Source: a virus. From it: DNA of 40,393 nucleotides. Under the pieces are notes generated by a model. It worked only from the letters and a program-made list of their open reading frames with translations, did no database searches and was not told the origin of the DNA. Position numbers and translations under genes: made by a program. How positions within the stretch are numbered: the first letter of the stretch is position 1; each line of letters opens with the position of its first letter. Location: positions 1 to 40,393 of the IMG/VR virus record IMGVR_UViG_3300027985_000851; one strand, 5' to 3'. Positions 2,596-40,393 of this stretch are shown in pieces.

Positions 2596-3354
2596 TTATC
2601 GCAATTTTCTGTATTGCTTATCAAGATAAGGCCATGACCCATCTGACTTTAATTTGTTAATTAACCTATTATATTCTTTGCCGTGATTCCCTAGATAGTT
2701 TTTTTTGTCCCAATCTTCCACCCTACCATGAAAAAGAGAATATGTTTTACTTTGCTTCTCTAGCTTAAACCTCGCTATCCCTGCTTTGTATAATCTCTGG
2801 TTGACGCTGAATCCATCAAGTCCGAACATCCTGTCCATCTCCTCACAAAAACCACCTATCTTATAAAGCAAATCCTTTGGACAACTACAAAAATTCCACT
2901 CAATGTCCTCCCATGTTGGTTTTTCATATTCATATCTTGGGTCTATCCATGCGGGAATGTCAAAATCATCGTCTGGATATTTATTGCCAAGAACAGAAAC
3001 TACGGCTTTTTTATCTTCTAAATAGTGTTTCCATAAAACAAATAAAACGTCTGGGTCAGCAAAAGTATAATCTTGCCAACTCACAACCAACTCTCCTTCT
3101 GATTTTTCTATTAATCTGTTGTACGAATAATTAAGATCCCAAACTTGCCATGATTTTAATGGCGGATTACCTATAAACTTAAAATCAAAACTACCAACCA
3201 CGTTTCTCACTTCGTCTTCCATTGTTTTGGGAGAACAAATTATCCATTCCCAGTCTCTGAAGTCTTGATAAGAAAGGGCTTGTTTTACCAATTTTAAACC
3301 TTCAGGTCTAATTGTCGGAGTTATTACAGATATTTTTGTATTATATTTTCCCAT
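2596..3354 (-). CDS. GT-A fold glycosyltransferase (family 2-like)
   Basis: The 252-residue protein begins MGKYNTKISVITPTIRPEGL, the first Rossmann strand of a family 2 glycosyltransferase, and has a W-Q-D-Y-T phrase where the metal-binding D-x-D is normally placed. Later G-L-D-G-F-S-V-N and F-H-G-R-V-E-D-W segments resemble the acceptor-side half of such enzymes. The open frame extends upstream to 3417, but the ATG at 3354 fits the family start, leaving a 31-base overlap with the preceding gene. No Shine-Dalgarno sequence is present, so re-initiation is probable. It would transfer a sugar from a nucleotide donor to an unknown acceptor. The degenerate D-x-D makes activity less certain. Confidence 0.75.
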   Translation of the reverse strand: MGKYNTKISVITPTIRPEGLKLVKQALSYQDFRDWEWIICSPKTMEDEVRNVVGSFDFKFIGNPPLKSWQVWDLNYSYNRLIEKSEGELVVSWQDYTFADPDVLFVLWKHYLEDKKAVVSVLGNKYPDDDFDIPAWIDPRYEYEKPTWEDIEWNFCSCPKDLLYKIGGFCEEMDRMFGLDGFSVNQRLYKAGIARFKLEKQSKTYSLFHGRVEDWDKKNYLGNHGKEYNRLINKLKSDGSWPYLDKQYRKLR

Positions 3355-3989
3355 TTGAAAGTAGGAGAGATGAAATCTTCCTCCATGTGAATTGCTAATG
3401 AGGGAATTGGTGACCAAAGTTTATGATCTATCGACCTCCACATTAAATCATCTACAGTACCGTGAGTAGTAAATTCAGGCCAATAGTCTCTAATTAAATC
3501 TGGTTTTGCACCAAATGTTAATGTTGTAGACACGACATTTTGCCAATGATGGCCGCTCGCGACAATCACCTTTCTTGGACGATTATATCCCTCTTCAAAA
3601 TAATGATTAGGATGATCGTAAGGAGAAACAAAACCCAACTCCTTAATAGCTTTGTCTAATATGTTTTGAGAATTTCTATTCACCCAAAGATAATCATCCT
3701 CTAATAAAAGAACATTTTCGTTCTGCTTAATTGCTAGGTTTAGTTGCAACAAGAAGCTTGTCTCATTACCAGATTGCCAATCTGGAGTATCAAGTTCAAC
3801 AACATCACCTCTATTCCTAACCATTTCAATTATCCAAGGCTCTGATTTATCTATTATAAATTTAGCGGGACAAGTAAAAGTTTCTAAAAATGATCTATAG
3901 GCCACTTCTACCACTTGGCGCTTATCCATGCCATTAGGTCTTTTCTTAAGTGGATTGCCTTGTGGGCAAAGTCTATAGATTACAATCAT
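3324..3989 (-). CDS. Glycosyltransferase-like protein with LLLEDDY motif
   Basis: This 221-residue protein carries N-V-L-L-L-E-D-D-Y-L-W around residue 95, which resembles the acidic metal-binding strand end of GT-A glycosyltransferases, and a later G-H-H-W-Q-N-V-V-S-T-T-L-T-F segment. The N-terminus (MIVIYRLCPQGNP) is a plausible first strand. It overlaps the genes on both sides (17 bases with the upstream gene, 31 with the downstream one), as expected for a coupled cassette. It is shorter than standard family 2 enzymes and may be a divergent member. Donor and acceptor are unknown. Confidence 0.65.
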   Translation of the reverse strand: MIVIYRLCPQGNPLKKRPNGMDKRQVVEVAYRSFLETFTCPAKFIIDKSEPWIIEMVRNRGDVVELDTPDWQSGNETSFLLQLNLAIKQNENVLLLEDDYLWVNRNSQNILDKAIKELGFVSPYDHPNHYFEEGYNRPRKVIVASGHHWQNVVSTTLTFGAKPDLIRDYWPEFTTHGTVDDLMWRSIDHKLWSPIPSLAIHMEEDFISPTFKWENIIQKYL

Positions 3990-4848
3990 TTATAAATTTC
4001 TCCCACCTTTTACGGCAAGTGTTATAAGTTTCAAAGTACTCGTTATCCTCTACTCCCTCAAAGTAGTGCTCGTTCATCTCTAAACCCTGAGCTTCCTTTT
4101 TAAGATTAGCCCAGACGTTACTAGCCCTCTCGTGGCGCACGATAGAGTATCCGGTGGCTATTGACCAGTCATTGTCATCGCAAATGCGTCTTAGATGGAT
4201 TCCCAACCAGATATCTGCAAACCTATCAATTCCAACCCTGTGGCCCATCGGGGCATAGTACACATAAGGAAGCATTTTTCTTTTAAAGGCGATATTCATT
4301 CCGCAAAAAGGGAAATAGACCCCTCTGGGGAATACTCCTTTGTAGATGCTGTAGGGTTTGTTGCCGTTTACTAACTGAGTTGGAGCATCCCAATCACCCA
4401 CCCCTTCCCAGCCACCGTGTGAAATTACACATTCTGACTGGCCTCTATTCCAGTAAGGCATACCGCGCATGTATTCAGAGGTACTAGACATCCACCCTAA
4501 AGGAAATCGTTCGTTTAAGGCGTCTAGGTGTTGCTGTATTGGATCTTCCCCATCTTTAGGCAAAGTATCGTCGTCTAAAGTGATGATTGTGTCTACTTCT
4601 GGTAAAAACTTAGCAATATAGGCAAATCCAAGGTTTCTTACGCCGTCGTTTTTGTTAAAGATTAGGTCGGAGTCTTTGCCCATTATGTCTTTTACAGTAA
4701 TCTTGTTGTTTATTAAAGGTCTCTCACCGTCTTGAACTTTTATTAACAAAACCTTGTGTTTTTTAAAAAGATCTTTCCACCTAGCAAGAAAAGTATTGTA
4801 CACCTCTTTTCTATTTTCAGTTGTTGGTACTACGACTGCAATGCTCAT
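3973..4848 (-). CDS. Reversibly glycosylated polypeptide-like protein (GT75-type)
   Basis: The 291 residues carry a G-V-R-N-L-G-F segment, then T-L-D-D-D-T-L-P (DDD at 92-94), then W-D-A-P-T-Q-L, F-P-F-C-G-M-N-I-A-F-K-R, R-F-A-D-I-W-L-G, and R-A-S-N-V-W-A-N-L-K-K-E. This order matches the reversibly glycosylated polypeptide / UDP-arabinopyranose mutase family (GT75), known mostly from plants, with members in bacteria and archaea. Some members interconvert sugar ring forms on UDP; others are thought to self-glycosylate. I chose ATG 4848, not the TTG six bases earlier: it gives the exact ATGA overlap with the upstream stop and places GAGGATT at good spacing. A mutase or transferase supplying the cassette is inferred. 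Confidence 0.75.
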   Translation of the reverse strand: MSIAVVVPTTENRKEVYNTFLARWKDLFKKHKVLLIKVQDGERPLINNKITVKDIMGKDSDLIFNKNDGVRNLGFAYIAKFLPEVDTIITLDDDTLPKDGEDPIQQHLDALNERFPLGWMSSTSEYMRGMPYWNRGQSECVISHGGWEGVGDWDAPTQLVNGNKPYSIYKGVFPRGVYFPFCGMNIAFKRKMLPYVYYAPMGHRVGIDRFADIWLGIHLRRICDDNDWSIATGYSIVRHERASNVWANLKKEAQGLEMNEHYFEGVEDNEYFETYNTCRKRWEKFINDCNL

Positions 4849-5510
4849 TTCCAATCCTCAAACAAATAACTTTTATGTTTCCAGTTGTTCCAAAGTTCAG
4901 TTAGTTTCTCTTGGTCGTTAAAGTTCCAGCCCCTTTGAGTTTGAGAGCATTTGTGGACAGCATTAAAGTCTGTAGTAACTACTTTGTGGGCGTTGTCCTT
5001 AATCCCGAAACACAGTTCTACATCATCTAGGTTTACGGGAATGTTGTAGTCATTAATAGGTTTGTACAGTCTAGTTTTAAACCCAACACACCACCCCATT
5101 AAATAATCTACTTCTCCGTCGCGAGAATAAAAAGGAAACGGTTGTTGCCACGGGTTTTTTACTCTATATCCTTGCTTACCTACAATACCCACATCTTCTT
5201 CTTTTAGTCTTTCAAGTATTGGCTCACACCACCCTTCGTCTACCATGCAGTCGTTATCCAACCAAAAACAAAGATCAGTTTTAACCTCTTTCATGGCTTC
5301 GTTACGGGTAGCGGGACAGCCAATATTGACTTGATGTCTGATTACGGTGGCCTCTGGGTAATACTTCTTAATTATGATCTCTTGTGGCGCGTCAGACCCA
5401 TTATCTGTAAAGATTAATTTATGGGGTATATCTGTGAAGGTCTTAAGCCTTTGAACAAACTCAGTAGTTATTTCTGGCTTATTCCACCCAAGGGAAACAA
5501 TCGTTACCAC
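4845..5510 (-). CDS. Family 2 glycosyltransferase
   Basis: This is a compact 221-residue GT-A glycosyltransferase. It opens MVTIVSLGWNKPEITTEFV, has I-F-T-D-N-G-S as the nucleotide-binding strand, N-I-G-C-P-A-T-R-N-E as the conserved loop, and L-C-F-W-L-D-N-D-C-M with D-N-D as the metal-binding motif (about residues 89-91). A later N-L-D-D-V-E-L-C-F segment supplies the typical E-D-like acceptor motif. It overlaps the methyltransferase upstream by seven bases and the GT75-like gene downstream by four. This is the best-preserved catalytic signature in the cassette, so it is the member most safely called active. Sugar specificity cannot be read. Confidence 0.88.
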   Translation of the reverse strand: MVTIVSLGWNKPEITTEFVQRLKTFTDIPHKLIFTDNGSDAPQEIIIKKYYPEATVIRHQVNIGCPATRNEAMKEVKTDLCFWLDNDCMVDEGWCEPILERLKEEDVGIVGKQGYRVKNPWQQPFPFYSRDGEVDYLMGWCVGFKTRLYKPINDYNIPVNLDDVELCFGIKDNAHKVVTTDFNAVHKCSQTQRGWNFNDQEKLTELWNNWKHKSYLFEDWK

Positions 5511-6193
5511 TTAACCCTCCAGTATGTAGCCGAACAACCATAAGGCAAATCTCTCATTGGAAAGTTGCCTATCGCTCCATATTTTTCAGATAATAAATTA
5601 GTGAATGGTTCAAAAACAGGGTTGACGCAGTAGTTCCATAACCACTCAATCTTGTCTAAATTAAGATTTCCCTTAACGTGTCTGTCTATGATTTCTTCTA
5701 TCTCACTATCAGGATAATAGCCCGTCAACCAATCACCCCACAAGTTCATGTCGTGTATGTGTACTAAGGTTCCTTTTTTAAGTTGAGAGATGATTTTATC
5801 TAAATATAGTTTGGCAAAGTCTCGTTTGTGATCTGCGTCTATGAATAGAAAATCAACCGTTGACCAGTCAACATCATTGTAAGTGTCTTCAAAGTAACCA
5901 GGGTGCGGAACAACATCATCAGACCCGACATCTGTTTCTAAGTTACCCACGGCCAACCTTAACACGTCGGGTAAATCAAACATGTGGTGCTTAGCTTTGC
6001 CTTTAGCAACTTGGATTATATTTGTGCTTCTTGAGTGTTTCTCGGTTCCTACTTCGACAATATTATTAAATTTGTTTTCTTTCAAAAACCCGTATAAATA
6101 GGCTGATTCTAAGTTACCATATTGGCTATCTGGCAGAAATGGAAATATTGCCGTAAAGAAATAATCAAAGTGTTTTAGAATTGAAGGGTCCAT
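5504..6193 (-). CDS. SAM-dependent methyltransferase (Methyltransf_24-like)
   Basis: The 229-residue protein has N-I-V-E-V-G-T-E as the SAM-binding motif I (about residues 44-51), a D-F-L-F-I-D-A-D-H-K strand (about 112-121) and a L-K-K-G-T-L-V-H-I-H-D strand after it. These features are typical of the class I fold in the Methyltransf_24 group, often found beside glycosyltransferases. It probably caps or decorates a sugar or lipid made by its neighbours. It overlaps the upstream GT-B fragment by 19 bases and the downstream transferase by seven, so it is embedded in the cassette. No Shine-Dalgarno sequence is seen. Confidence 0.82.
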   Translation of the reverse strand: MDPSILKHFDYFFTAIFPFLPDSQYGNLESAYLYGFLKENKFNNIVEVGTEKHSRSTNIIQVAKGKAKHHMFDLPDVLRLAVGNLETDVGSDDVVPHPGYFEDTYNDVDWSTVDFLFIDADHKRDFAKLYLDKIISQLKKGTLVHIHDMNLWGDWLTGYYPDSEIEEIIDRHVKGNLNLDKIEWLWNYCVNPVFEPFTNLLSEKYGAIGNFPMRDLPYGCSATYWRVKW

Positions 6194-6738
6194 TGTTGTG
6201 CAATGTCTGGTCTGTAGTAACCTTTGGCAAACTTTTTTCCTTTGTTGGATTCTTCTTGCCAGCGTTTATCATCACCCATTAAATCTAATAATTGTTTTAA
6301 ATATTCCTCTCTAACCTCGGGATCCCACACTTCACCGTCCACCTTGACTCCGCTACCAACAGTTTCTTTTAAAGCCGCTTTGTTTATGACACAAGGTACG
6401 ACCCCATCATCTTGAGCCTCCAGGGCGCCAATACAATTAATCTCGTCAAAATCAGTTGTATATGCCCATATTCCACATTGTTTTCTCAATTCTCTCAATT
6501 TGTCCTGTCCCACTTTTCCATGATGAATAATCCCCGGTTGGTTCATCAAATCAGAAACCTTGTTCATCCACCGCATGCGCTCTGGGTTGTTGGAGTGGGC
6601 CTTAATGAAAAGATCCCATCCATAACAAATATCCAACGTGGCCTCAGGATAAGCTTCTCTAATTTTAGGCCACATTTTAAGGAGATACAATAAACCCCTA
6701 TCGTAACTGGATTGCCACCATATCTTCTGCTGTTTCAT
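6175..6738 (-). CDS. C-terminal (donor-binding) lobe of a GT-B glycosyltransferase, separate gene
   Basis: The 187 residues correspond to the second Rossmann domain of a family 4 (GT1-type) glycosyltransferase. They begin near the interdomain linker with W-W-Q-S-S-Y-D-R-G-L, continue with a Y-P-E-A-T-L-D-I-C-Y-G-W strand, then H-H-G-K-V-G-Q-D-K-L and E-I-N-C-I-G-A-L-E-A-Q-D, where E-x7-E normally binds the nucleotide sugar. No N-terminal acceptor lobe is present. That lobe lies at the end of the preceding 592-residue protein, whose TAG stop is one base before this ATG in another frame. The two products may assemble, or a frameshift may have split one gene. Confidence 0.8.
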   Translation of the reverse strand: MKQQKIWWQSSYDRGLLYLLKMWPKIREAYPEATLDICYGWDLFIKAHSNNPERMRWMNKVSDLMNQPGIIHHGKVGQDKLRELRKQCGIWAYTTDFDEINCIGALEAQDDGVVPCVINKAALKETVGSGVKVDGEVWDPEVREEYLKQLLDLMGDDKRWQEESNKGKKFAKGYYRPDIAQQWTLQF

Positions 6739-6739
6739 A

Positions 6740-8518
6740 CTAATTTATACAATTACTAATAACTTCTATTTTAGAATCAGGAATATTTGGTGCTAACTCA
6801 CGGTGGAACTTTGATTTGACCATAATTTTGTCAATGTGTTCCAGTTTTTCCTTGTCGTAGTCGGCTGGATTAAAAATATCGTGTAAATCAATTAATAGTT
6901 TTTTTGTTTTAACCTTACCGGCCAAGAAATTAGCCCTCCACTGAATTAGGATATTAAAATCATCTTCTGGATTAAACCAATAGTATGGGAAATATCTTAC
7001 TCCGTTAACAACGCAAGGCTTGATAGGATCGCAATAGACCGTGACGTCGTAACCTAACCTGGTCCATTCTTCGCTTAATTTAATTACGGCCGTTTCACTC
7101 CCGCCGATACCTTCCTTAAGACTGTTTCCATCCCACTGCATAAAATGTTTTGATCCAAATGAAGCGAAATAACAAATTTCTTTGTCTCCCCATTTTCTTG
7201 GAGGAGAAAATTTCTGTCTCAACTTGATAGCAAATGGTTGCTGTTGAATTTCCATTGGCAACCTGTCTATTAAAGGAACAATGCTATTCTCTTTTCCGAT
7301 TGAACTCAAATACTCACACAACTTGTCAACATTGTGACAGGCATTATCCATATCCATTAGATTGAGTAAATATTCATGGTTTTCTATGTTTTCTTCCGAA
7401 GGTTCAATAGAGACGAGCATCTTTGACGCCTCTACGGCTTTTGCTACGTTCTTTTCTACTTGAAATGCCCACTTAAGCATTAATTTTGCTGCTCTTATCT
7501 TAATTGGAGTTATAGCAACAACGCTACTGCCAACCCCTTTAATATCCATCCCCATCGCGATATCCATCCAGTGTTTACATTTATCATACTGTCCATTATT
7601 AATGTAATATTCAGCCAATATTAGTTTCGGCTCTACATTATGGGGAAATCTACCAATAGACATTATTAAGTGGTCTTCAACTTCATTTATCCTACCGAGT
7701 CTCATCAGTGCCTGAGCCATCTTATCATGGCAGGTTGCCATTTCTTCATCCCACCCAGATTTTTGTAGGTACTCTTCTCCCATTTTTAAAGACTCTTCCC
7801 AAAGTTTAGGTTCTGCAAGTTCTACATAAATTTTTATCAAATTAAGAAGCGTTCTCGGATCTGCCCCCTGTGGAGTCTCCCTCTCTTCTTTTAATTGCAT
7901 CTCCAGAAGCTCCTTGTTTCTACCCATTTTTTCACTATTCAAAAAATCATATTCTTGGTCTAGGTGTACCCACACAACATTCTGCTTTGGTGGCTCATAT
8001 CTGTACCTAACATATTTGGGAGTAGCTCCAATTGGGACAGGGGTTTCATGTAGTCTGTTTTTCCATATATGAGTATTTGGTTTTATAAGTCTCTCTCTTG
8101 GTTGTACCAAGTCAACAGAAATAACATTCTTAAAATTTGGTTCTCCCTTAAACTCACAAGCATACCAATAATCAAAGAAAACAACACCAACCCCGTCATT
8201 CTTCGCTTTCTGGGCTATTTTTCTTATTTCCTCTCCTCCGACTATCTCATCGTCGGAATCAGCCCAGAGTATAAAGTCATAATCTCCATGATTCGTGGCC
8301 TGTTGCCAATTGAAATTGCGCTGAGAACCAAAGTCTTTATCCCACTTTCTGAAAGAGTGGTAAAAACCTTCCTTTTTACACCACTTTTCTGTCTTAGTAT
8401 GATTACTACTAGAAGTAATAAACACGCCCTCTACAAACGGTTTTATTGAGTTGACGCATGACTTTAATTTATCTAATTCTTCGTCACCTTTAGTAATAAT
8501 ACAGAGAGCTATTTTCAT
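6740..8518 (-). CDS. Three-part protein: family 2 glycosyltransferase, TPR repeats, GT-B N-lobe
   Basis: This 592-residue protein has three parts. Residues 1 to about 200 are a family 2 glycosyltransferase (MKIALCIITKGDEELDKL; D-F-I-L-W-A-D-S-D-D-E with D-S-D-D as metal motif). About 210-410 is a helical repeat region resembling tetratricopeptide repeats (for example E-E-Y-L-Q-K-S-G-W-D-E-E). About 440-592 is the N-terminal lobe of a GT-B enzyme (E-G-I-G-G-S-E-T-A-V-I-K-L-S, V-E-I-S-N-C-I-N analogue at the end). It stops exactly at the usual interdomain linker. The ATG at 8518 overlaps the stop of a 44-residue gene. It probably anchors the surface-sugar cassette; acceptor unknown. Confidence 0.85.
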   Translation of the reverse strand: MKIALCIITKGDEELDKLKSCVNSIKPFVEGVFITSSSNHTKTEKWCKKEGFYHSFRKWDKDFGSQRNFNWQQATNHGDYDFILWADSDDEIVGGEEIRKIAQKAKNDGVGVVFFDYWYACEFKGEPNFKNVISVDLVQPRERLIKPNTHIWKNRLHETPVPIGATPKYVRYRYEPPKQNVVWVHLDQEYDFLNSEKMGRNKELLEMQLKEERETPQGADPRTLLNLIKIYVELAEPKLWEESLKMGEEYLQKSGWDEEMATCHDKMAQALMRLGRINEVEDHLIMSIGRFPHNVEPKLILAEYYINNGQYDKCKHWMDIAMGMDIKGVGSSVVAITPIKIRAAKLMLKWAFQVEKNVAKAVEASKMLVSIEPSEENIENHEYLLNLMDMDNACHNVDKLCEYLSSIGKENSIVPLIDRLPMEIQQQPFAIKLRQKFSPPRKWGDKEICYFASFGSKHFMQWDGNSLKEGIGGSETAVIKLSEEWTRLGYDVTVYCDPIKPCVVNGVRYFPYYWFNPEDDFNILIQWRANFLAGKVKTKKLLIDLHDIFNPADYDKEKLEHIDKIMVKSKFHRELAPNIPDSKIEVISNCIN

Positions 8519-16552: not shown

Positions 16553-18138
16553 TTTTCCTCCTCTAAATTTTTAATTAGTGTATCAAACTGTATAGAACTG
16601 TTCAGACTCCTGACGGGTTTCTCGTCCTCGTAGGCACGGCTGACGGGTTTAGGGTCATTTTTAGTAAAATCCCCTTGAGAATTCTCTCGCGTAAGGACTT
16701 TACTAAAAACAGGGGTAAACCCGTCAGCCAAAGCTAAATCACCACCCAAACCCGTCAGGTTTTTGTTTTCCTTGACCCCATTACCACTCCATAATCTTAC
16801 CCCTTTATAGTAAGCACCGTCCTCCTTATGGACACTAGGAAATTTGTCTCCCATCCTCCTACCAAAGGCCGTAGAAGAAATAATATCGGCTCTTTGTATT
16901 CCCTCCGTCCCAGCCCAATCAACATAGTCGCTATAGAGAGACCTAGCCTTTGTCATATAGTTTTCGTCAATACTACATCGCGAGTGGAGGTAGTCTGCCA
17001 AAATGTCATTATCTGCTTGATATGTCTGAGTAGCTGCATTTACTTTTTCAGGAATAGGGCGCAGACCTTCTTTCTGCCAAAGAAGGCAGCCGTCAATCAG
17101 CCAATTTAATATTCCCGCCTTTTCTTCTTTTAGCTCCTCAAGCAAGTTCTGATTCTGTTCTTGCTGAGCAAAGGTTCTTTCAAAAGGAATTAGTCTGACC
17201 CTTCTCCAAAAACCAAAACTATCATCCTCAACTTGAGGCTTGTGATTAATAAACAACCAAGGCTTAACCGTAGGCTCAAAGCTAAAATACTCTCCATAAA
17301 GATACCTCGCCGACTCAGTGTCACCACCCGTCCATTTCTTCAGCCTCTGTTCATTTATCTTAGAACTAGAAAGAGTCTCTGAAGACACCAGAAAGCGCTT
17401 AAACTCAGTCGCGGCCACATCATTAGTGCTGGTATTGAATTGGTTTCGTTGTAGGAGACTAGACGGCGCGTCATGGGCATAATCCCCCAGCACCGAGGAT
17501 ACTGTTTTAAACAACACACTCTTACCATTAGCACCTCCTCCAAAACAAAAGAAGGCCACCTGCTCTCTGGTCATTCCAGTAATTGAATAGCCCAAGGCTT
17601 TTTGCAGATAATGGATAATCTCTTCATCTCCAAAGAAAATCTCGTTGACAAACTTCTTCCACCCTGGACAGTCTTGGCCGCCATCGTAACTAATATTTGT
17701 ACTCATAGTGATCATATCCTCCGGCTGACCATCTCTCAACTTGCCTGTTTTCAAATCAACTATTCCATTATCACAAGAAAGAAGCATAGGGTCCCTATCC
17801 CACACTTCACCAAGGTCGGAGATTGGCTTGATGCTCTTTGACAAGTCCAAGAAAGCATCAATCTTCCCTTTGCTTTCAGAGGCCATAGCCCATTTAGCTT
17901 CAGAAATTCTCTCTTTGTTGTTCTCAATATTGACCGATTCAAGATATCTTGTTCTGGCCATTTGGATAGCCAAGAGTTTAATTGACTTTCCTTTGTCGTC
18001 TATCCACCTGTGCTTATCCCAAACTAGCCACCTGTTTCTGCGATGATCATACCTCACCTTGTTTCCAAACATCTCTGCAAACTTGAAGGCATTGCCAGAG
18101 TCTGACCTATTATATGTTTTTGGTTTTTCTTCTGGCAT
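16549..18138 (-). CDS. D5-type SF3 replicative helicase
   Basis: The 529-residue protein has a D5_N-like N-terminal half (R-Y-D-H-R-R-N-R-W-L-V-W-D near residues 29-41 and D-N-G-I-V-D-L-K near 123-130). A superfamily 3 ATPase follows, with Walker A G-G-G-A-N-G-K-S (200-207), an acidic Walker B-like L-V-S-S-E-T-L, and P-W-L-F-I-N-H-K-P as the motif C/sensor strand. It unwinds DNA at the fork as a hexamer. No polymerase-primase (AEP or TOPRIM) domain is fused, unlike many phage D5 proteins. The C-terminal 70 residues are low in conservation and are where the nested inverted DNA repeats fall. Confidence 0.9.
   Translation of the reverse strand: MPEEKPKTYNRSDSGNAFKFAEMFGNKVRYDHRRNRWLVWDKHRWIDDKGKSIKLLAIQMARTRYLESVNIENNKERISEAKWAMASESKGKIDAFLDLSKSIKPISDLGEVWDRDPMLLSCDNGIVDLKTGKLRDGQPEDMITMSTNISYDGGQDCPGWKKFVNEIFFGDEEIIHYLQKALGYSITGMTREQVAFFCFGGGANGKSVLFKTVSSVLGDYAHDAPSSLLQRNQFNTSTNDVAATEFKRFLVSSETLSSSKINEQRLKKWTGGDTESARYLYGEYFSFEPTVKPWLFINHKPQVEDDSFGFWRRVRLIPFERTFAQQEQNQNLLEELKEEKAGILNWLIDGCLLWQKEGLRPIPEKVNAATQTYQADNDILADYLHSRCSIDENYMTKARSLYSDYVDWAGTEGIQRADIISSTAFGRRMGDKFPSVHKEDGAYYKGVRLWSGNGVKENKNLTGLGGDLALADGFTPVFSKVLTRENSQGDFTKNDPKPVSRAYEDEKPVRSLNSSIQFDTLIKNLEEEK
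16609..16759. repeat. Nested inverted copies of CTGACGGGTTT inside the helicase gene (possible origin or operator)
   Basis: Four near-identical 12-mers lie here: CCTGACGGGTTT at 16609-16620, GCTGACGGGTTT at 16639-16650, and their exact reverse complements at 16717-16728 and 16748-16759. The outer two pair with each other and the inner two pair with each other, down to the first base. Between the inner pair are TTTTTAGTAAA and TTTACTAAAAA, and at the centre the palindrome GAGAATTCTC. The copies are read in different codon phases, so protein conservation does not explain them. Confidence 0.75.
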
Positions 18139-18788
18139 TATCTATCTCCTGTCAAAAATTTAATGGCGTCAACAAAATTTAACTTATTTCTCTCCATAAC
18201 AAACTTAATGGAGTCTCCGTGGGCACCACAACCAAAGCAATGATATTGATTATTAGGATAAATGTGCAGGCTTGGTGTATTCTCTTCATGGAAAGGACAA
18301 CACCACATTTTGTTTATTCTCTTGGTATCTATCAGGTCTTCGAGAGGGAAGTCTCTGGCTTGTTGTATTTGAGATTCGGTTAGGCCATTGTCTTTCTTTT
18401 CTGTTTCTAATCCAAGTCTTAAATACCTCACTTGTTTTTCTAGCTTTTTGATTTTGGGCAAGAGTGTCATCTCCAAGACCACATCCCTAGCCAAGCCCTG
18501 CGTCTCGGTTAATTCTTTTTGGCTCAAAACATCCTTCTTAATCGTTAGAGCCCCAATTTCGTCCTCCTTTTTCCTCAAGTTTCTTTTAATAGTAGACTTC
18601 AGTTCCGGATACATCTTAATCCATTCTGCGGCAGAAAGATCTTTGGGCTGGTTTGCCCTCCAGTATCGGCGGCAATCATCTACATAATCCAAATACTCAT
18701 CGGCATCACAAAAACCCGCCGAGTATTGATTGGCACCACTCCCGACGGGTTTTTCTAATGACGATGGGTTAAGAAGTTTTGGTGCCAT
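18138..18788 (-). CDS. Primase-type zinc-finger protein (CHC2), without a catalytic domain
   Basis: The ATG at 18788 (MAPKLLNPSSLEKPV) is preferred over an upstream in-frame start. It fits the promoter spacing, and the extra 66 residues would overlap the divergent gene and are unlike protein. The 216-residue product has a long helical middle with heptads (K-I-K-K-L-E-K-Q-V-R-Y-L). It ends in a DnaG-like zinc finger: C-P-F-H (about 164-167) and C-F-G-C (about 184-187), with the T-P-S-L-H-I and G-D-S-I-K-F-V phrases of CHC2 domains. No TOPRIM or AEP catalytic domain follows. It probably recognises primer start sites for the helicase, which begins at its stop codon. Confidence 0.82.
   Translation of the reverse strand: MAPKLLNPSSLEKPVGSGANQYSAGFCDADEYLDYVDDCRRYWRANQPKDLSAAEWIKMYPELKSTIKRNLRKKEDEIGALTIKKDVLSQKELTETQGLARDVVLEMTLLPKIKKLEKQVRYLRLGLETEKKDNGLTESQIQQARDFPLEDLIDTKRINKMWCCPFHEENTPSLHIYPNNQYHCFGCGAHGDSIKFVMERNKLNFVDAIKFLTGDR
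18710..18754. repeat. Inverted AAAAACCCG / CGGGTTTTT pair in the primase gene
   Basis: AAAAACCCG at 18710-18718 is matched by CGGGTTTTT at 18746-18754, with a further imperfect extension (CCGAG against CCCGA). The right half, CCGACGGGTTT at 18742-18752, differs by one base from the motif repeated four times in the helicase gene. It may be an additional, weaker binding site of the same factor. Confidence 0.5.
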
Positions 18789-19207: not shown

Positions 19208-19759
19208 ATGCTAAACGGAAACAAACCAACCATCCGAGTCGGGGGTGGAAATTTTACCCCAATTACCGACGGCGCTTACACATTACAGATTGTTGACGTA
19301 ACACTCGTCTCTGGGTTCAACAAGTTCAAGGGGATTGATGAGGAAAAACTCAACTATCAATTTGCTGTTCTTGATGATGTTAAACAAGAAGACGGTAGCT
19401 CTAGTAGAGAAAGATACCTTTGGAAAAGATGTTCTCTCTCTATGCACGAGAAATCGTGGCTCTACAAATTAGTTAGGGCTGTCTACGGAAGAGATCTCTC
19501 CAAAGAGGAAATGGAAGCATTTGACGCAGAGTCAATTATTGGCAAACAAGTCAAAGCCTTAGTTTCTCAATCTCCTTCTTCTGATGGATCTACCATCTAC
19601 AACAACATCATGTCCTTCTCTAAAGTAGAAAAGGAACTCAAGCCGGTAGAATTTCAACCAAAACCAACCGAAATTCATACCGAATCAAAACCAATTGACG
19701 GCAGTCAAGAAATTGACCCAGACGCCATGATCGAAGAAATTGAAAACGCTATTAAATAG
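19208..19759 (+). CDS. Single-stranded DNA-binding-like protein (DUF669-type)
   Basis: The 183 residues start MLNGNKPTIRVGGGNFTPI. They continue with beta-rich sequence (Y-T-L-Q-I-V-D-V-T-L-V, then K-L-N-Y-Q-F-A-V-L-D, then R-Y-L-W-K-R) that matches small OB-like proteins of the DUF669 kind found in phage replication regions. It ends in an acidic tail (D-P-D-A-M-I-E-E-I-E-N-A-I-K), as SSB proteins do for partner binding. A clear AAAAAGGAAA ribosome-binding sequence precedes the ATG. It is followed by nuclease and helicase genes, so a role in protecting single-stranded DNA during replication or recombination is likely. Confidence 0.7.
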   Translation: MLNGNKPTIRVGGGNFTPITDGAYTLQIVDVTLVSGFNKFKGIDEEKLNYQFAVLDDVKQEDGSSSRERYLWKRCSLSMHEKSWLYKLVRAVYGRDLSKEEMEAFDAESIIGKQVKALVSQSPSSDGSTIYNNIMSFSKVEKELKPVEFQPKPTEIHTESKPIDGSQEIDPDAMIEEIENAIK

Positions 19760-19760
19760 T

Positions 19761-19790
19761 AGCTTCTGCCACTAAATAAGGTGGCAGGCT
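19761..19790 (+). promoter_or_regulatory. Hairpin between SSB-like and nuclease genes
   Basis: CTGCCAC (19766-19772) and GTGGCAG (19781-19787) form a perfect 7-bp stem with an 8-base loop. AGC and GCT extend it beyond a two-base bulge. There is no U-tract immediately after it, so it is more likely an RNA stability or processing element than a terminator. A second weaker hairpin (TTTTAG and CTAAAA) lies just before the next ATG. Confidence 0.55.
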
Positions 19791-19835
19791 GTTGCTATTT
19801 AAAATTTTAGATAAAAGGCATAGTCCTAAAATCTT

Positions 19836-21827: not shown

Positions 21828-21857
21828 TTGACAAGCATACATAAACCGATATATACT
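21828..21857 (+). promoter_or_regulatory. Internal early promoter after the helicase gene
   Basis: TTGACA (21828-21833) is followed by overlapping -10 candidates: TATATA (21850-21855, 16-base spacing) and TATACT (21852-21857, 18-base spacing). Transcription would start near 21864 and make a leader of about 128 nt before the next gene, unlike the leaderless divergent promoters. Confidence 0.75.
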
Positions 21858-21863
21858 CACTTA

Positions 21864-21991
21864 TCAAAGCAGAAAGAACACCCGATACGAGAGTATCGGA
21901 GAGAGGAGAGTTTTAACAACATCAGTCGATTGTCTAAATAAAACCCCCCTTCTCCGATATTCTCAAAGCAGAATATTAATTAAATAAAAAA
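21864..21991 (+). promoter_or_regulatory. Structured 5' leader with two mutually exclusive folds
   Basis: CCGATAC, GAGA loop, GTATCGG (21882-21899) makes a perfect 7-bp hairpin with a GNRA loop. The segment 21889-21903, which includes that hairpin's loop and 3' arm, can instead pair along 15 bases with 21950-21964 (13 Watson-Crick and two G-U pairs). The folds cannot coexist. No U-tract follows, so control of translation, or of RNA decay, is more likely than termination. The leader ends in AATTAAATAAAAAA directly before the ATG. Confidence 0.6.
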
Positions 21992-22334: not shown

Positions 22335-22883
22335 ATGAAAAGCACACATTTCAACAAAGACGGCTCCTTGGACATGAGATTTCGCCATAACAAGACCGCC
22401 GAGACCAAAGAATTAATCTTTTGGAAGAAGTATGGAGTATTGGTAGTGGTTGGTATCTTAGGATTCTTATTTGGCATTGTTGTCAACAAGACCGCCTACG
22501 ATCTCTTCTACAAAAAACCAGAAGCCAAACAAACACCCACCGCAAGCATCGCTAAACCCGTTGAGGCGAACGAAACACCGTATTGCTATGATCCAATAGC
22601 CTGCATTAGAGATGTTGGTGAGGAGCTTGGTAGAGACAATAAAACAATTATGACCATGATTAGAATTGCTCAGAAAGAAAGTGGCATGAACCCAAGGGCT
22701 AAAAACCCAAAGTCTAGCGCTTCTGGTTTATTCCAAATTATCGCTGGGACATGGTATTCAAATGATTGCGTTGGCGATAAATGGAATTTTGAGGATAATA
22801 TTAGATGTGCTTACAAAATCCAAGAATGCAGAGGCTTCCAACCTTGGGAGGTATGCCATACTGGAGTAGCAAATTGTTACTAA
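22335..22883 (+). CDS. Membrane-anchored lytic transglycosylase (SLT-like)
   Basis: The ATG at 22335 is chosen because it follows the preceding stop by one base; the upstream in-frame start overlaps that gene. Residues 33-50 form one hydrophobic span. A Lys/Pro-rich linker leads to a lysozyme-like domain with the catalytic glutamate in A-Q-K-E-S-G (Glu 115) and the G-L-F-Q-I motif (131-135). At least seven cysteines in the exposed domain suggest disulphides formed outside the cytoplasm. It would cut peptidoglycan. Its position among early genes, far from the late lysis cassette, hints at local wall remodelling or exclusion of other phages rather than final lysis. Confidence 0.85.
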   Translation: MKSTHFNKDGSLDMRFRHNKTAETKELIFWKKYGVLVVVGILGFLFGIVVNKTAYDLFYKKPEAKQTPTASIAKPVEANETPYCYDPIACIRDVGEELGRDNKTIMTMIRIAQKESGMNPRAKNPKSSASGLFQIIAGTWYSNDCVGDKWNFEDNIRCAYKIQECRGFQPWEVCHTGVANCY

Positions 22884-23232
22884 TAACCCTTAGATCATGG
22901 GGAGACAGCTCCCTATGAATGTGAAGGTTATTGCAACTTAACAACTTGAGGATTACTTGAGCCAATGAAATATTGCAACGTATTCATTATATTTTTTCAA
23001 ATTTATTAATGTATTAGCAGCGTTGCAATGCGAAAAAGTAAGCGATAACAAAATGTTGCAACATAATCACTTCATTTCAGGTTGATTGGCTCAAATAGTC
23101 CTCAACCATGGACAAGATCGGAGGATGATGGCTGAATAATCAATAGGCCATTGGTCTCCCTGCTTGAGACACCTGTCTAGGGCTTCCCCCGATCAAGTCC
23201 ACCTTTATAAATTTAGAAAAGAAAGAATAAAT
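22884..23232 (+). ncRNA. Putative structured non-coding RNA, about 300 nt (core 22897-23203)
   Basis: This 349-base stretch has no convincing gene. It holds three structural elements. A hairpin lies at 22897-22916 (8 bp, ACAG loop). A 20-bp stem between 22946-22965 and 23086-23105 has one G-U and one mismatch. It encloses TGAAAT/ATTTCA and ATTGCAACG/CGTTGCAAT (22972-22980 with 23021-23029). A third domain, closed by GGAC-AA-GATCGG (23110-23121) with CCGATC-AA-GTCC (23189-23200), encloses two small hairpins. TTGCAA at 22931 and at 23056 could pair across the 20-bp stem as a pseudoknot. The same TTGCAA occurs four times, so a DNA origin or operator is the main alternative. Confidence 0.55.
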
Positions 23233-23406
23233 ATGAAAAAAATAAACATTAGTTTCATTCCATCCATATTTTTAAATATATTTTTATTGTTTACGACGAC
23301 ACCAAAACCTCAGTTTTCATTTTTTGGATTTAACATAGTAAATTTGATTCTACTTATTGTCTTTGTTGCACTCACATTTTTCCCATTATTACTTAGATCC
23401 AAATAG
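23233..23406 (+). CDS. Small two-span membrane protein (57 aa)
   Basis: The ATG at 23233 (MKKINISFIPSIF) is preferred to an upstream start that lies in the structured region. Two hydrophobic stretches (F-L-N-I-F-L-L-F and L-I-L-L-I-V-F-V-A-L-T-F-F) are separated by a Lys/Pro turn, so it would sit in the host membrane. A purine-rich AAAAGAAAG lies upstream. Early position after the lytic transglycosylase suggests a membrane-directed takeover or exclusion function. Confidence 0.6.
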   Translation: MKKINISFIPSIFLNIFLLFTTTPKPQFSFFGFNIVNLILLIVFVALTFFPLLLRSK

Positions 23407-39235: not shown

Positions 39236-40393
39236 CTACACCCTAGAGGCCGAACTCAACTGCCCCTCTCCACCTATCTGTGCCGTTGCTCTAATACCAA
39301 GTAACTCAAAATTAGAATTTGCCGCAGTTGTTGTAATTTCAAATTGAATAATTGTCCCTTGCTTAAAAAGTGGAGTCCATTTCTTGATTTCATCAGTAGC
39401 CACAACAACTTCTCCTCCAGATTCTCCCCACTGTTGAGTCCCATAGGTGTCAATCCCCCACCCAGTATTTCCCGCAATAGCTGAGCCAGTAATAGTGAAT
39501 GTCTTTACTGTAGAGACAGAACCGTTTCTGTCTTCCAGTAAGACGTTGACTGTCATTTGTCCTGTTACGTTTCTAAATAAGAAATAAAGGAATTTTATTG
39601 TCTTAAGAGATGCCCAAGTATCAAAAAACTCTTTTTTGGTTCTAACAGTCTTGTTTATTGTTGTACCATTATCAGAATAAATACTCGGCTCAAAAGTATA
39701 GGTTTGATTACTATCATTACTACCAATTATCCATCTTTCTGTTCCAGTAGAATCAATTGTTTTGAGAAGTTTTGAGATTCCAAAAGGTAATTTCCAAATA
39801 CCCAACCAACAACCCCTTTCTCTGTCGTAAACAATGCACTCTTTTCTTAATGGGAAGGATAGGACATATTTGTTGTCTACGTAAAAAGCGCAAGCGGTTT
39901 TGTAGTCTTGGGCAGATAGTCCAGAAAGATATGGTCTTATTCTCGCGGAAATTTCATTAGTTCTAATTAGATTCAAGAAATTTGGTTCATAACCAACAAC
40001 GTAAAGACCTTTTCGCCCAAAATAAAATTGATCGTTTTCTACGGTCGTCATTGAATCTTGATTGGAACAACCGGTCAATGTGGAAATTGGCTGGTATTGA
40101 GGATCTAGCAATACATAATTTCCTATAGTTACCGTATTAAGCGTAACAGCATAAACAGAATATTCTTTGGTGACAATTATTTTGTCTGAACCTAGCTGTG
40201 AAGAAACGGCTGTAATTGAGTTTCCACTATTGGGATCTATATAAATGTAACCTCCGCCATAGGCCCAAGAGAATTTTGATTGGTCAGGATACCTACCAGA
40301 TATTAATAATTTAGAAGGATCGTCTTCGGGTACCATTAGTAAGCGATCTCCAATTTTGGCAATTACCTTACTTTTAACGCCACCGGTTTGGTT
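39236..40393 (-). CDS. Tail nozzle-like protein, C-terminal part (residues 261-645)
   Basis: This is the continuation of the gene whose start is at 924, and it ends with TAG at 39236. In this window it appears truncated at its 5' end because of the 144-base terminal repeat. The segment carries repeated short strands around W-A-Y-G-G-G-Y-I-Y-I-D, S-V-Y-A-V-T-L and Q-F-Y-F-G-R-K-G-L-Y-V-V-G, a beta-propeller-like pattern as in podoviral nozzle proteins. A beta-rich end follows (K-E-F-F-D-T-W-A-S-L-K-T, then V-L-L-E-D-R-N-G). The same N-terminal 48 codons of this piece are present at bases 1-144, so the gene should be counted once. Confidence 0.75.
   Translation of the reverse strand, partial: NQTGGVKSKVIAKIGDRLLMVPEDDPSKLLISGRYPDQSKFSWAYGGGYIYIDPNSGNSITAVSSQLGSDKIIVTKEYSVYAVTLNTVTIGNYVLLDPQYQPISTLTGCSNQDSMTTVENDQFYFGRKGLYVVGYEPNFLNLIRTNEISARIRPYLSGLSAQDYKTACAFYVDNKYVLSFPLRKECIVYDRERGCWLGIWKLPFGISKLLKTIDSTGTERWIIGSNDSNQTYTFEPSIYSDNGTTINKTVRTKKEFFDTWASLKTIKFLYFLFRNVTGQMTVNVLLEDRNGSVSTVKTFTITGSAIAGNTGWGIDTYGTQQWGESGGEVVVATDEIKKWTPLFKQGTIIQFEITTTAANSNFELLGIRATAQIGGEGQLSSASRV
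40250..40393. repeat. Terminal direct repeat, right copy
   Basis: These bases duplicate 1-144 exactly. Dropping them yields a 40,249-bp circle in which the nozzle-like gene is uninterrupted. Confidence 0.95.

Follow-up and report, generated by a model that had tools for sequence, protein, structure and literature searches.

A structured, box-bearing non-coding element in the early region of an uncultured phage genome: a candidate origin-type DNA locus

The 349-nt non-coding element at 22884-23232 of the window (the whole 40,393-nt viral record that was analysed) folds far more stably than chance allows, and four short palindromic boxes are clustered within it around an AT-rich core. We read it, with a probability of roughly 0.4, as a cis-acting DNA locus of the origin type in the early/replication region of the phage. 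A structured element in the early mRNA was rated slightly lower, and a new class of independent non-coding RNA lowest among the functional readings. A high fold score from a single sequence cannot alone tell RNA from DNA function. If the element is an origin-type locus, it gives a place where the start of replication can be tested in a phage lineage that is uncultured and has no studied member.

Genome setting, anatomy and fold

The first 144 bases of the record are identical to the last 144 (1-144 and 40250-40393), forming a 144-bp direct terminal repeat. With both ends identical over this length, the record very probably represents the whole genome of a phage (about 40.2 kb), probably circularly closed or terminally redundant. 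The genome is 39.5% G+C and encodes a terminase, a portal, a major head protein, a D5-type primase/helicase, a DnaG zinc-finger protein, a helicase, an exonuclease and a possible SSB. By terminase, the nearest annotated phage is an uncultured Caudoviricetes from Manatee Spring (49%). In the structural half (2596-8518), several glycosyltransferase-like genes and a methyltransferase-like gene are clustered, as judged from their translations alone.

The element lies in the early region of the phage among co-directional genes, and an HNH endonuclease gene is found near it. It fills exactly the gap from the stop codon of a gene with a transglycosylase SLT domain to the ATG of a 57-aa gene, so that the 349 non-coding bases described in an earlier, sequence-only reading of this DNA were correctly placed. 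That reading had also named a conserved protein frame across the stretch as grounds for refutation; a protein across 22884-23232 was rejected, the overlapping ORFs having no Pfam support. The features of the region, from the promoter to the downstream gene, are as follows.

21828-21857, + strand: best sigma-70-like promoter upstream of the element-bearing operon (TTGACA-18-TATACT; promoter scan)
22341-22883, + strand: upstream gene, TM plus transglycosylase SLT domain, stop codon at 22881-22883
22884-22930, + strand: domain 1, hairpin directly after the SLT stop codon (fold)
22945-23106, no strand: domain 2, 24-nt inverted repeat enclosing a 9-bp stem (arms 22946-22969 and 23082-23105)
23108-23203, no strand: domain 3, stem with a symmetrical AA/AA internal loop, leading to a multibranch loop that carries two hairpins (fold)
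23233-23406, + strand: downstream gene for a 57-aa membrane-type protein, with its ATG at 23233 as the next plausible start

The hairpin, the long-range stem, the enclosed 9-bp stem and the AA/AA domain named in the sequence-only reading are all present. Domain 1 has an outer stem of 5 bp (UAACC/GGUUA) and an inner stem of 9 bp, and its fold reaches -21.8 kcal/mol on the + strand and -16.5 on the - strand. The arms of domain 2, separated by 112 nt, form Watson-Crick pairs at 21 of 24 positions, with one G-T, one C-A and one G-G at the others, and the stem within them is perfect over its 9 bp (22972-22980/23021-23029). This long-range inverted repeat (24 nt, 21 matches) is the sole one of its class in the genome; in a control, any such repeat was seen in 1 of 12 Markov-shuffled genomes. 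The stem of domain 3 runs from 23109-23113/23197-23201 through the AA/AA loop to 23116-23121/23189-23194 and then opens into the two hairpins. This domain is 52% G+C, compared with 39.5% for the genome, and folds better on the - strand (-41.9 vs -36.1 kcal/mol).

Fold z scores were obtained by comparison with composition-matched shuffles. The + strand of 22884-23232 folded to -107.3 kcal/mol, better than all shuffles (-73.5 ± 6.1, z -5.5; z -7.1 in a second shuffle set), and the - strand to -103.3 kcal/mol (z -5.1). The fold is thus real, beyond chance and statistically sound, which bears out the earlier description of the stretch as structured. The helices show no clear preference for either strand: domains 1 and 2 fold better on the + strand and domain 3 on the - strand, and the non-Watson-Crick helix pairs on the + strand comprise 5 G-U vs 3 A-C, counts that compare the two strands because an A-C on + is a G-U on -. 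Near-equal folding of both strands, together with wobble pairs that show no strand preference, is what is expected for an inverted repeat that acts at the DNA level. Other parts of the genome are no less structured: for their length, the segments 16600-16770, 21880-21975 and 19752-19835 equal or exceed the element.

Boxes, AT core and candidate origins

Of the six RTTGCAAY motifs in the genome, four lie in 133 bp of the element, a clustering matched by 0 of 300 shuffles. TTGCAA is the sole 6-bp palindrome in the genome that clusters in this way.

22930-22937, + strand: box 1, ATTGCAAC (pattern scan)
22972-22979, + strand: box 2, ATTGCAAC, doubling as the 5' arm of the 9-bp stem (pattern scan)
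22981-23020, no strand: AT-rich core, 85% A+T (composition of 40-mers)
23022-23029, + strand: box 3, GTTGCAAT, doubling as the 3' arm of the 9-bp stem (pattern scan)
23055-23062, + strand: box 4, GTTGCAAC, inside the perfect 12-bp palindrome ATGTTGCAACAT (23053-23064)

Two boxes thus stand on each side of the core, a 40-nt segment equalled in A+T by 0.37% of genome 40-mers. Boxes 1, 2 and 4 are spaced by 42 and 83 bp, which would be close to whole helical turns. Boxes 2 and 3 are not independent of each other, because both are arms of the 9-bp stem, and this weakens the cluster as evidence for an origin. A crossing pairing of TTGCAA copies had also been proposed. The copies are indeed clustered, and any copy may pair with any other because the hexamer is self-complementary; the crossing pairing itself was not among the predicted pairs.

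The origin-type reading turns on this layout, in which four palindromic RTTGCAAY boxes flank the AT core and are framed by the 24-bp inverted repeat and two flanking hairpins. A phage DNA-binding protein would occupy the boxes, the 85% AT core would then melt, and the stems would form in the exposed single strand, where a helicase or primase would be loaded. The phage encodes candidate replication proteins for these steps (the D5-type helicase, the DnaG zinc-finger protein and the possible SSB).

Origins that combine iterons with AT-rich DNA are known from lambda-type phages and from phages with D5/P4-type helicases. The element resembles them in its clustered short boxes, its adjoining AT-rich potential unwinding region, its inverted repeats, its early-region position and the presence of a helicase/primase module in the same phage. 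It differs in that its boxes are 8-bp palindromes and not long tandem iterons, and in that it lies neither in nor next to the helicase gene, being about 5 kb away from the D5 gene. The G4 complementary-strand origin represents another type, the hairpin-rich site of single-strand initiation. The adjacent stem-loops of the element would likewise form in single-stranded DNA, but the element is much larger, and the likeness noted is one of layout.

A sharper iteron-like cluster was found inside the D5 helicase gene, a more usual place for an origin. Here CTGACGGGTTT occurs in four exact copies, two per orientation (two inverted pairs), within 149 bp at 16610-16758, a clustering seen in 0 of 300 shuffles. 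The cluster is part of a 35-nt inverted repeat, and exact copies of CTGACGGGTTT occur nowhere else in the genome. We consider 16610-16758 the best candidate for the replication origin, ahead of 22884-23232. The sequence-only reading had offered a DNA origin as its alternative to an RNA; the box cluster and AT core speak for that suggestion, and the rival cluster speaks against it. A one-mismatch copy of CTGACGGGTTT was also observed in a long hairpin at 18690-18775, in the opening codons of the DnaG-zinc-finger gene and just after a divergent promoter; on the coding strand this hairpin has a z of -7.7.

Other signals also count against an origin at the element. No strict DnaA box occurs in the whole genome, and the GC skew of the genome tracks gene direction, shows no turn at 22884-23232 and is uninformative for an origin. 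Strong hairpins that lack such boxes occur in other intergenic gaps of this operon too; a hairpin by itself is therefore no sign of an origin. Conservation of the boxes could be followed in no homologue.

The nearest multi-gene relative, G038, which of the relatives has the most structural genes in common with the window, offers a parallel. Its DnaD/O-like replication initiator gene holds four 23-bp iterons, GGGGGGGAGATACAAAAGTATCA (L068:11755-11865), and directly downstream of this gene lies a non-coding stretch of 337 nt. This stretch holds an inverted repeat of 32 nt (81%), whose arms are 80 nt apart and enclose another stem. This case sets a comparable long-range repeat beside what is likely an origin. 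Alignment of the element with the non-coding stretches of G038 gave no meaningful similarity, so the G038 repeat is an analogy and not a homology. Long inverted repeats of G001 and G042, two other relatives, stand in different contexts and were not taken as homologues.

The element in the early transcript

Another reading, which we rate almost as likely as that of an origin-type locus, is a cis-acting structured element of an early polycistronic mRNA. Transcription from the 21828 promoter, ~1 kb upstream, would pass through p113, the SLT gene, the element and the downstream genes. The long stems may then be cut by RNase III or may shield the mRNA, so that the levels of the SLT message and the downstream message would be separated, as in T7-like intergenic processing; alternatively, the RNA could act on RNA polymerase in the manner of put. 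The co-directional flanking genes agree with this reading, as does the finding that no strong promoter or terminator-like site of its own was seen bracketing 22884-23232. The transcribed strand is also the better-folding one overall, and the fold stays intact in the mRNA context, where the mean pair probability of the main helices is 0.94-1.00; only the second of the inner hairpins in domain 3 falls below this (0.67). Against an mRNA element stand the preference of domain 3 for the opposite strand and the wobble pairs, which favour neither strand, and the RTTGCAAY cluster and AT core would be left unexplained.

Two more gaps of the operon hold strong hairpins, and these too fit a role in the message. 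One, at 19752-19835, lies between p183 (SSB-like) and the exonuclease gene (-29.8 kcal/mol, z -5.8, + strand better). The other, at 21880-21975 (z -7.0), comes directly after the 21828 promoter in the same operon as the element; over 21828-21964 the promoter is followed at once by a leader hairpin of 15-bp-plus (z about -5 to -7). G001, the sole record sharing the SLT gene (about 50% identity), likewise has a TTGACA-17-TATACT promoter and long hairpins before this gene (L002:5678-5880). That both the window and G001 have a good sigma-70-like promoter before SLT, with long hairpins after the promoter, fits structured leaders at the RNA level. Across all relatives, 17 of 121 promoter-like sites were followed by a fold with z about -2.5 or lower, vs 4% of random sites, a modest excess in a count that includes duplicates. 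Hairpin-rich gaps appear to recur in the early operons of this phage group.

In the T7 early region, RNase III sites are long stems that contain small internal loops, usually one hairpin per site, and they lie in the gaps that separate early genes of the same direction. The element has such stems in such a gap, and the outer stem of domain 2 is of the T7 kind (~20 bp or more with an internal loop, between co-transcribed early genes), cleavage being putative; at 349 nt and with three domains, the element is far larger. The put RNA of HK022 consists of two stem-loops in ~70 nt and is found downstream of early promoters (PMC9378689); it too is a cis-acting structured RNA of an early phage transcript. 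Unlike put, the element has three domains in 349 nt and lies ~1 kb from the nearest good promoter, and it does not match the put pattern.

Homologue searches and known RNA families

Rfam 15 covariance models at gathering threshold gave no match in the window, and at E<=10 they gave chance-level matches alone for 22884-23232. The sequence-only reading had called for this search, and the outcome agrees with its not recognising GOLLD, ROOL, a group I intron or another large phage RNA in the stretch. A group I intron with a homing endonuclease was rejected because, besides the missing Rfam match, the SLT reading frame and its G001 homologue share the same end point. GOLLD, ROOL and all other Rfam families were likewise set aside for 22884-23232. 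Like GOLLD and ROOL, the element is a structured non-coding candidate in a phage genome; unlike them, it has no Rfam match, and it stands in a genome without a tRNA island (a tRNA/tmRNA search of the genome found none). GOLLD, often longer than 800 nt, is also far larger than the element (PMC12286853).

Searches by sequence and by structure gave the same picture. A blastn search of the element against annotated phages, plasmids and E. coli genomes gave low-complexity chance matches or none, and scans of IMG/VR with the exact pattern of the domain-3 5' strand and with a gapped pattern of the domain-2 stem each gave 0 matches. Single-sequence covariance models of domains 2 and 3 found no relative in 0.72 Mb of window, relative and host-contig DNA, the best marginal match (R2, E 0.22) being a short perfect hairpin. 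Related records were collected by SLT (G001, which a profile search again returned alone) and by terminase (43 records); the helicase, D5 and exonuclease searches yielded none, nor did an SLT search of genome contigs. The element was not found in these 44 related viral records. Because no relative was found for testing, 22884-23232 is better viewed as a cis-acting control site than as an established new RNA.

We consider it improbable that the element is a new class of independent non-coding RNA, one that acts in trans after being transcribed inside the early region or released from it. Such a molecule, of about 320 nt and with three abutting domains, would be made from the early operon and would adopt one compact fold, in which TTGCAA copies could provide kissing, pseudoknot or dimerisation contacts. 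The very stable, closely abutting domains and the Rfam results agree with it, and the element would then be, as a singleton, a candidate new class of phage RNA. A new class is possible, and what speaks specifically for it is the fold. It is opposed by the missing homologues, and hence covariation, in the collections searched, by the missing bracketing promoter or terminator, by the lack of a clear strand preference, and by the equivalent place in G001, where no such element follows SLT and the next gene begins after a few bases.

A decayed or hitch-hiking insertion (a mobile hairpin element or relic), or a set of chance inverted repeats with no present function, is also unlikely, though less so than a new RNA class. 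No relative carries the element, domain 3 is richer in G+C than the genome, and the HNH endonuclease gene is nearby, all of which would suit an insertion. The element is, however, present in a single copy in the genome, its fold beats all shuffles, and it does not appear decayed, because its stems are nearly perfect. As a minor observation from the early region of another relative, G005, an Rfam-level tRNA gene was found at L059:3188-3269, with a second tRNA-like sequence ~500 bp upstream.
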